Source: a bacterium (GTDB lineage: Bacteria > Hydrothermota > 32-111). Taken from it: a stretch of DNA of 40,895 bases. Numbering within the stretch: the first letter of the stretch is position 1; each line of letters starts with the position of its first letter. This document shows positions 36,044 through 38,382 of the stretch, piece by piece. The position numbers were made by a program, and so were the translations under genes. The stretch covers positions 1-40,895 of the forward strand of contig JAQVDU010000005.1 of assembly GCA_028698175.1 (NCBI GenBank), written 5' to 3'. The notes under the pieces were generated by a model that searched no databases, had not been told where the DNA came from, and saw nothing but the letters and a program-made list of their open reading frames with translations.

Positions 36044-36628
36044 TTAAACGGACTTTATAAATCCAATCACCTTGCCGACAATTGAAAAATCATCTGTCTT
36101 TTTAATTTCTATTTCAGAGTACTTTTCATTCTCCGGCAAAAGAAATATTTCATTCTCTTTTTCAAAATACCTTTTAATGGTAAGTTCTCCGTTGAGGAGA
36201 GCCACGACAATGTCCCCGCTTTTTGTCTGGAGGGACCTGTCTACAAGGACCATGGAATTATGTTCAAGACCCGCGCCTGTCATACTCTCTCCGTTTATTC
36301 TGAGAAAGAACCTCTCCTTGTGCGAACCTTCCATTATGAATGAATCCTCTATGTCTGACTCGGATGAGAGCGGAAGTCCGGCGGATATCCGTCCGAGAAG
36401 CGGGACTATTGAAAAGTCGTCTCTAGAGGATATTCCCCTTGATATTCCGCTCTTTCTCTCTATAAGCCCCATATCATGAAGATTCTTCATATGGACAAAG
36501 ACCGCCTTTGTGCTTTTAAAGCCGAGGTCTGAAGCCACTTCCCTTACCGTGGGAGAATAGCCGCTTCTCTTTCTGAGCTTCTCTATTGATTCAAGAACTT
36601 TTTTCCGGGAACCGCTCACCTCTTTCAT
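36044..36628 (-). CDS. lexA: LexA repressor
   Basis: A 194-residue repressor and self-cleaving protease. The N-terminal winged helix (residues 1-70) has KSTKAVFVHMKNLHDMGLIER as its recognition region. The C-terminal S24 domain has the cleavage pair A83-G84 (GRISAGLP), nucleophile S115 in NGESM and K152 in LTIKRY. On RecA activation it cleaves itself and releases SOS genes. It heads the run of repair genes dinB and nfo. A palindromic operator lies directly upstream. Start ATG 36628 has AGGAGAA. Confidence 0.96.
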   Translation of the reverse strand: MKEVSGSRKKVLESIEKLRKRSGYSPTVREVASDLGFKSTKAVFVHMKNLHDMGLIERKSGISRGISSRDDFSIVPLLGRISAGLPLSSESDIEDSFIMEGSHKERFFLRINGESMTGAGLEHNSMVLVDRSLQTKSGDIVVALLNGELTIKRYFEKENEIFLLPENEKYSEIEIKKTDDFSIVGKVIGFIKSV

Positions 36629-36684: not shown

Positions 36685-36832
36685 GTGGGTCCAACCCTGT
36701 GTCTCCGCACTGCAGGATCAAATACAAATACAACTGGCTGTTGGCGGGTTTAGCGCCGGCTCACACACTCCGCTTCGCCTCTGTATCAAGATGGAATAGC
36801 CAAGCAAGCGGCCAACCACTTGATGGGCAACT

Positions 36833-36854
36833 AGCCGGAGCGTCCTCGCCGGCT
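36833..36854. repeat. Short inverted repeat AGCCGG/CCGGCT
   Basis: AGCCGG at 36833-36838 and CCGGCT at 36849-36854 enclose a ten-base loop. It is one of several hairpins in the noncoding block. Confidence 0.55.
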
Positions 36855-36874
36855 TATAGCTTTCACTGACCTGT

Positions 36875-36905
36875 TGTGGGGACACACCGAAGAAATGTCC
36901 CCACA
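36875..36905. repeat. Strong hairpin with 10-bp perfect stem
   Basis: TGTGGGGACA (36875-36884) pairs with TGTCCCCACA (36896-36905) around an 11-base loop. No T tract follows on either strand, so a simple terminator is unlikely. Confidence 0.7.
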
Positions 36906-37062
36906 GACTCAAAAACATTGGAGGGCGGTGCTTAAGCTGCACTGAAATTTTTAAGTATGCCTGTAAAGATAAAATCTTACTCAACTGTGAATTGCCTTTT
37001 TAACTTTTAACTTGTAACCTTTAACCGAATAGTTTAGCGTTCATTCGGACATCATCACCGGC
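36904..37062. repeat. Direct repeat, copy 1 (159 bases)
   Basis: Aligns to copy 2 at a constant offset of 297 bases, running from CAGACTC to CATCACCGGC. The first 24 bases differ at several positions; the next 135 differ at only two. Each copy contains a CCGAAT/ATTCGG hairpin (37025-37048 here) and TAAC-rich segments. Confidence 0.9.
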
Positions 37063-37140
37063 AGCATATCATGATGGGTTAGAGTTGGAATGCTGAAAAC
37101 AGCAGTCCAACAACTACAGCCGGCCCACATGATGACCTGC
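37061..37140. repeat. Imperfect long palindrome between repeat copies
   Basis: The core is GTTGGA-A-TGCTG (37084-37095), loop AAAA, CAGCA-G-TCCAAC (37100-37111), an 11-bp stem with one A-G mismatch. Outside it, ATCATGATGGG (37068-37078) and CCCACATGATGA (37124-37135) can also pair imperfectly. Confidence 0.6.
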
Positions 37141-37200
37141 CTTGTGATAATGTTCTCATTCACTTTGGGCTTACACTATCTATAAGATAATTGTTTAGCG

Positions 37201-37359
37201 CAGACTCCTAAACATTGAATCCCAGTGCTTAAGCCGCACTGAAATTTTTGAGTATGCCTGTAAAGATAAAATCTTACTCAACTGTGAATTGCCTTTTTAA
37301 CTTTTAACTTGTAACCTTTAACCGAATAGTTTAGCGTTCATTCGGACATCATCACCGGC
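37201..37359. repeat. Direct repeat, copy 2 (159 bases)
   Basis: Second copy, ending about 40 bases before amrS, just upstream of its -35 box. It carries the same CCGAAT/ATTCGG hairpin (37322-37345). Confidence 0.9.
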
Positions 37360-37366
37360 TTACCCA

Positions 37367-37395
37367 TTGTCTCCTCTCTTTTTCTAATGTATAAT
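37367..37395 (+). promoter_or_regulatory. Sigma-70 promoter of amrS, leaderless arrangement
   Basis: TTGTCT (37367-37372), 17 bases, TATAAT (37390-37395), then six bases to ATG 37402. Transcription should start at or next to the A of the ATG. No ribosome site is present. Confidence 0.8.
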
Positions 37396-37401
37396 ATATG
37401 A

Positions 37402-38382
37402 ATGAGAAGATGCGAGTTTTACGAAAAAATTGATTTGAATAGAGTAAGATGCACTCTCTGCCCCCATTACTGCACTCTCTCTGAAAATCAATCCGGACTC
37501 TGCTTCGGCAGAAAGAATATAAACGGAGAGCTGATGCCAGTAAATTATGAAAAGGCGCTCACAATTGCTGATGACCCTATTGAAAAGAAGCCTCTGTACC
37601 ACTTTCATCCCGGTTCAATGATAGTATCGGTTGCGCAGCACGGCTGTAATCTCAGATGCCCCTTCTGCCAGAATTACGACATCTCTCAGACATACAGGGA
37701 TACGCCATCTCTTCCTGTTGACGGTCTCTACAACATCATCAGAAAGAAGAAAAGAGACTCTGTCGCATTCACTTACACTGAGCCTTTAATGTGGTATGAG
37801 TATATACTTGATTTCGGAGTAAAGTACTCACATGAAATTCAAATAGTCCTTGTAACCAACGGCACAATAAACGAGGAGCCTTTAAGGAAGATTGTTCCTT
37901 ATATAAAGGCGGTAAATGTGGATTTAAAGTCATTCAATAAAGATTTTTACAGAGACGAACTCAAGGGAGACCTCGAAACTGTGAAGAGAAGCATAAGGAT
38001 ATTCAGCGAAGAGAAGGTTCACATTGAAGTGACCCATCTTCTCCTGCCCGGAAAGACTGATGATGAAAGAGAGTTTCATGACATGATTGAATTCATCGCA
38101 TCAGTCTCGCCAAAGATTCCGTTTCATATCTCAAGGTACTTCCCAAATTACAAATACTCTCTCTCTCCCACCCCCCTTGATAGGATGACAAAACTCTATA
38201 AAATCGCCGGAAAGAAGCTTGAATACGTATACCTCGGAAACGTTGCCGGAGAATGGTTTTCAGACACCCTCTGTCCTAAATGCAAGACCCTTCTTGTTTC
38301 AAGAGACGGATACAATACTCTTAACAGCCTTAAAGAGCCTGAATGCTTCAACTGCAAAGAGAAAATAAATATAATACTGTGA
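37402..38382 (+). CDS. amrS: AmmeMemoRadiSam system radical SAM enzyme
   Basis: A 326-residue radical SAM protein of the AmrS group, related to pyruvate formate-lyase activating enzymes. The cluster motif is C82-x3-C86-x2-C89 in HGCNLRCPFCQNYD. N-terminal cysteines C17, C20, C24 and C34 precede it, and a C-terminal CPKC...CFNC zinc-ribbon-like pair (about 295-320) follows. These two additional cysteine sets are typical of the AmrS form. The substrate is unknown; relatives occur with AmrA (AMMECR1) and AmrB (Memo), neither of which is in the window. It is the first plus-strand gene and probably has a leaderless mRNA. Confidence 0.93.
   Translation: MRRCEFYEKIDLNRVRCTLCPHYCTLSENQSGLCFGRKNINGELMPVNYEKALTIADDPIEKKPLYHFHPGSMIVSVAQHGCNLRCPFCQNYDISQTYRDTPSLPVDGLYNIIRKKKRDSVAFTYTEPLMWYEYILDFGVKYSHEIQIVLVTNGTINEEPLRKIVPYIKAVNVDLKSFNKDFYRDELKGDLETVKRSIRIFSEEKVHIEVTHLLLPGKTDDEREFHDMIEFIASVSPKIPFHISRYFPNYKYSLSPTPLDRMTKLYKIAGKKLEYVYLGNVAGEWFSDTLCPKCKTLLVSRDGYNTLNSLKEPECFNCKEKINIIL

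Follow-up and report, generated by a model that had tools for sequence, protein, structure and literature searches.

The analysed stretch of bacterial DNA (the window, 40,895 nt) contains a 159-nt repeat in two copies, situated in an insert between the divergent genes lexA and amrS. We consider it likely that this repeat belongs to the interior of a mobile element that is composite, non-autonomous and of the TIRYT/TIRtron kind, and that at this locus is degraded and internally duplicated. An earlier note, made from the sequence alone, had offered three possible natures for the repeat: a dispersed mobile repeat, a pair of small RNAs, or a degraded insertion. The first of these is supported by several observations: copies are dispersed over the genome and lie mostly between genes, the corresponding site is empty in relatives, the repeat folds as a palindrome, copies carry terminal inverted repeats (TIRs), and the ends of some copies are identical to those of a resident transposase gene.

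An insert between two divergent promoters

The product of lexA (36044-36628, minus strand) has LexA and S24 domains according to Pfam, and amrS, as the earlier note called it, is a radical-SAM gene (37402-38382, plus strand) matching PF04055; the two are divergent, with promoters back to back. The gap between them is 773 bp here, compared with 103 bp and 120 bp in G004 and G003, two genomes of the same family that have no insert at this place. In both relatives 6 bp separate the -35 boxes AGTCAA and TTGAC, against 682 bp here, which places the insert between them (Table 1); this empty-site comparison covers one locus, lexA-amrS. The LexA-box-like sequence TGTAAACATTTGTTTACA is kept in all three genomes, and promoter-like boxes are found at 36684-36657 (minus strand) and 37367-37395 (plus strand). 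As judged from these boxes, the insert left both the lexA and the amrS promoters in place. In G001, which belongs to the same genus, the contig breaks off inside 7-mer repeats, some 110 bp upstream of the amrS counterpart.

The earlier note had placed the end of the second copy about eight bases before the amrS -35 box and suggested an effect on that promoter. The distance is as described (the copy ends at 37359 and the -35-like TTGTCT begins at 37367), and the insert does move the two promoters apart; the -35 and -10 boxes of amrS, however, lie outside the repeat, and the data hint only faintly at an effect on amrS.

The window copy has a degenerate T1-type left end (this module reads TAGGGGCGGACCC..GTGTCCGCCCTGCAGG in relatives) and two cores, of which one is full and the other stops after CACCGGC. 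We found no recognisable right end in it, and "degraded insertion" is therefore a fitting description of this particular copy, which is probably immobile.

Table 1. Features of the insert and of the repeat within it (window coordinates)
Feature	Position	Strand	Remarks
Whole insert, 682 bp at most	36685-37366		between the -35 boxes of lexA (minus) and amrS (plus)
Degenerate left terminal module, T1 type	36686-36716	+	by eye against copies on contigs C38, C72, C94 and C106; also from the places where the hairpin form occurs
Module starting CTGGCTGTTGGCGGGTTTAGCGCCGGC and ending GCCGGCTTATAGCTTTCAC	36734-36868	+	also present, in inverted orientation, at the far end of the copies on C38 and C63
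TGTGGGGACA..TGTCCCCACA hairpin	36875-36905		resembles the dispersed GGGGACAG..CTGTCCCC palindrome
Copy 1 of the repeat	36904-37062	+	spans the junction from the upstream module chain to the core
Run of a 7-base unit (TTTTAACTTTTAACTTGTAACCTTTAAC)	37000-37027	+	repeated at 37297-37324; same kind of run in C76, C94 and C109
Core palindrome, 126 nt	37040-37165	+	one long imperfect hairpin; the window's only full core
Copy 2 of the repeat	37201-37359	+	core cut off after CACCGGC

The two-copy repeat in the window

A repeat search of the window and a base-by-base comparison agree with the earlier description of two copies at an offset of 297, with 135 almost identical bases. The two 159-nt copies are 94% identical, with 9 differences (unit positions 8, 9, 18, 20, 21, 22, 24, 35 and 50), and the last 135 bases of the unit hold just two of them. 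The repeat is far beyond chance, the region containing 90 repeated 20-mers where 200 shuffles gave at most 0. No gene-like open reading frame explains it, as had been stated: only one frame of at least 60 aa overlaps it, and this lies on the minus strand and is 88 aa long.

The CCGAAT...ATTCGG hairpin that had been pointed out is indeed present in both copies. Most other copies in the genome are without its left arm, because the flank there is GGCAGGRAG.TTAGCG. The hairpin is a by-product of a junction, at which the module end CCGAATAGTTTAGCG meets the start of the next module, TTCATTCGG. The first 24 bases of copy 1 resemble the C110 type and those of copy 2 match copy C13, which suggests that the 297-bp duplication was preceded or followed by exchange with other copies.

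Dispersal within the genus

A purely local duplication, with no other copies in the genome, had been named as the alternative to a repeat family. The local duplication is there, but the genome search returned 20 matches to the 159-nt unit, and the core 23-mer TTCATTCGGACATCATCACCGGC is found in 13 copies when up to 3 mismatches are allowed (control, 0). The copies lie between predicted genes, with only two blocks overlapping a small ORF; they adjoin unrelated genes, in either orientation. In lying between genes, occurring many times and containing no coding gene, they resemble miniature non-autonomous inverted-repeat elements (MITEs). Copy numbers are lower bounds because contigs break in these repeats, where intact two-ended copies may be hidden.

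The one other genome of the genus in the set searched, G001, has at least 7 diverged matches, most of them at contig ends. When 120 genomes were searched with a covariance model of the core, we obtained 10 matches in G000, 6 in G001 and none in the other 118 relatives. A core 20-mer gave 11 scattered single matches to unrelated organisms in a named genome collection, which we take as chance, and a 21-base pattern gave none in viral contigs. Among the genomes searched, the core is restricted to the genus.

Copies are chains of palindromic modules

Read by eye, the copies are chains of modules in which a left terminal part is followed by a stretch of the form CAAATACAAATACAA..TGGCGGCAGG..TTAGCG and then by the core; behind this come at least one additional hairpin (GGGGACAG..CTGTCCCC, GAGAAAC..GTTTCTC, CTTCTAAAAC..GTTTTAGAAG or GACTCAAAAA..TTTTTGAGTC), a TGTAAAGA.. 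stretch, and runs of 7-mers. Modules are seen in either orientation and truncated. The GGGGACAG..CTGTCCCC palindrome occupies 10 places in the genome, and its hairpins are nested at differing points of the core; a short CTCATTCG/TTCATTCGG stretch with no core behind it occurs on C19 of G001 and at one place on C109 of G000. Arrays of 7-mers (such as GGTACTA / GGTACGA) stand beside several copies (L080:5600-6100, L081:2950-3200, L079:880-1700 and L077:7400-7530), and in G001 such arrays read CACACGG / CATACGG. An integron attC site, prompted by GTTTAGCG junctions, was dropped by eye, as the copies do not keep the GTTRRRY core-site form and are dispersed.

There are two alternative terminal types, and most copies, including that of the window, are of type T1, with a GTAG-like hairpin. 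In C38, C109 and other copies, GTAG stands before the hairpin of GGGCGGAC type; the window copy has lost it. In C38, C63 and C99 the far end is an inverted version of the copy's own left end; terminal inverted repeats were seen by eye in these three and in C109, and not in the window copy, where the right end is missing. Copy ends are degenerate. Those of C109 read TAGGGGC..GCCCCTA, compatible with a TA target, and a TA target-site duplication is possible there, although Y1 elements need no such duplication. These ends would suit mobilisation by another transposase family, such as a TA-targeting DDE enzyme with TAGGG..CCCTA as its inverted repeats. The longer end, however, matches the Y1 gene's own flanks in both species (see below), and on this comparison, made with Y1 genes, we regard mobilisation by another family as rather improbable.

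The palindromic nature of the element is evident from its folding. The C63 copy folds as DNA at -163 kcal/mol, against a shuffle mean of -87, and the z of the core is near -4.8 to -4.9, whether it is folded as RNA or as DNA, and -4.3 on the other strand. Pairing holds in 87.8% of cells across 8 core copies from two species, compared with 29-48% with partners slid, while covariation in these copies was not beyond shuffles. Such a combination of kept pairing with covariation at shuffle level points to a kept palindrome rather than to an RNA gene. A structured regulatory RNA, or the proposed pair of small RNAs, acting on amrS or lexA would agree with a core that folds far better than shuffles as RNA (z -4.9) and with terminator-like hairpins at 36926 and 37223. 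Yet DNA, and the opposite strand, fold about equally strongly, Rfam searches at E limits of 1 and 10 returned nothing credible, modules are found truncated and in either orientation, and copies of either orientation adjoin unrelated genes, making an RNA function highly improbable.

Some copies share their ends with Y1 transposase genes

The genome carries eight Y1_Tnp genes, none with internal stops; five were checked against Pfam, with the Y1 domain (PF01797) above cut-off. In the L054 protein we could read HYH and YIHGNP (Y-x3-NP), and this protein alone has a weak HTH_23 match (21.5 bits, below the cut-off of 24.6). Terminal inverted repeats flank the Y1 genes L052, L054, L055, L056 and L057. 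Around L052 and L054 these are inverted TAGGGACGGTGGTT, a 14-mer with 18 exact occurrences in the genome, and four inverted pairs of it, 147-213 bp apart, enclose no transposase gene and represent MITEs (short elements of ~160-230 bp). The GGGGWSAS motif is matched by TAGGGACGG at 6 of 8 positions.

Composite copies that start with the transposase-type end are found at C120 (the exact 14-mer) and C99 (CAGGGACGATGGTT). In G001, a Y1 gene that shares its upstream neighbour with L054 carries, on its 3' side, the end CAGGGACGGTGGTTCCAAAAAGCACCATTTTT. The C96 and C15 copies of G001 begin with the same 32 bases as this transposase gene, starting CAGGGACGGTGGTT (the C15 contig ends at the shared bases, the body of that copy lying outside it), and the C62 copy begins with 31 of the 32. 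The 32-base end starts with C in G001, and the end in the window's genome with T. In these comparisons, gene and repeat ends thus agree within each species and differ between species. Ends common with the autonomous element are limited to C120, C99 and the G001 copies, and do not extend to T1-ended copies such as that of the window. We found no transposase gene flanked by T1 ends in the window's genome, and no copy bore intact transposase-type ends on both sides, in part because contigs break in these repeats.

The dispersed palindromic repeat could instead have spread solely by recombination or gene conversion, its transposase-type ends being captured by chance nesting when a TIR element inserted beside it. 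The mosaic module order, the nested GGGGACAG hairpins, the two terminal types and a duplication whose left part is of another type would all agree with this. However, in several copies of both species the transposase-type end continues as a similar flank on its inner side (AAAATACA..TGGYGGC.), with the core following directly, so that chance capture would need to be repeated, and we consider spread by recombination alone unlikely.

Other elements in the genome are also associated with Y1 genes or have TIRs. Three TIR-bounded elements begin ~5-15 bases from the 3' end of the genes for tRNA-Ala (L054:1347-1427), tmRNA (L110:1159-1501) and tRNA-Ser (L055:1880-1996), which hints at a preferred place of insertion. 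A further family, TGGGGACGGTGCTT, occurs at ~20 places (e.g. L135, L137 and L053), one of them beside the Y1 gene L053. Two further Y1 genes adjoin GTAGAGAC..GTCTCTAC-type palindromes (L058:1124-1160 and L059:957-991), forming with them a second REP-like system in this genome.

A possible route of spread

We infer movement, a transposase as the mover, a single-strand route and a cause of the duplication, as follows. A MITE-like chain of palindromic modules would have spread between genes within the genus, some copies ending in the TIR of a resident Y1 (IS200-type) transposase gene; this match makes the Y1 transposase, acting in trans, the likely mechanism. The enzyme would recognise those ends in single-stranded DNA, and the element would be excised as single-strand DNA and then re-inserted, with recombination between modules giving rise to mosaic copies. 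One element may have landed between the lexA and amrS promoters and then lost its right end; the repeat first seen here would be its 297-bp internal tandem duplication. A more ambitious proposal, that of a genus-level Y1-driven system in which a conserved core is re-assembled with alternative hairpins and two terminal types, and in which the ends evolve in step with those of the transposase gene in each species, is possible but doubtful.

Under the mobile-element reading, this would be a known kind of mobile element in a variant confined to this genus. The case shows such repeats pulling apart tightly packed divergent promoters. Two sister species whose gene and repeat ends match within and differ between them would further allow a direct test of binding and cleavage.

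Comparison with known systems

TIRYT genes and TIRtron units were named by Di Nocera et al. 2013, where the action of TIRYTs on repeats was left open (PMC3733652); most TIRYTs belong to TnpA-Y1 subclass 2.1, with HTH-type tails (Quentin et al. 2018, PMC6006769). Mobilisation of end-sharing repeats by TIRYTs, to which our case relates, is a question that these defining papers leave open (PMC3733652, PMC6006769). As in those systems, we find a Y1 transposase that shows HUH and Y-x3-NP and has a possible HTH-like tail (a match below cut-off here), flanking TIRs that are also found elsewhere in the genome, and a dispersed palindrome, GGGGACAG, that fits their GGGGWSAS motif. This motif is a feature of most published TIRs and not a defining one (PMC3733652, PMC6006769), and our main end, TAGGGACGGTGGTT, differs in matching it at 6 of 8 positions. 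Unlike the short TIR dimer of those systems, the non-autonomous partner here runs to several hundred bases, as a chain that contains a conserved 126-nt core.

REPINs and BIMEs with their RAYTs (Bertels and Rainey 2011, PMC3116915) are likewise non-autonomous palindromes that lie between genes and are linked to a Y1 transposase; they too form mosaic arrays, and our T1 hairpin has a GTAG-like foot. In contrast to them, the present elements are far longer, are low in copy number and contain several unrelated modules, and no transposase gene was found here flanked by the GTAG-type end.

The BrickBuilt MITE of Porphyromonas gingivalis (PMC4596501) resembles our element in its intergenic location, its internal tandem-repeat minisatellite, its ~20 copies, its narrow host range, and ends common with a resident insertion sequence. 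The ends there are of IS5 type (DDE) while those here are of Y1 type, and our copies consist mostly of hairpins and 7-mers. BOX elements are modular as well; compared with them, the module composition here seems more variable, and the likeness drawn here is one of description. Like the present element, those of Streptococcus pneumoniae are dispersed structured repeats near genes, almost limited to close relatives and held to be parasitic (PMC3049150).
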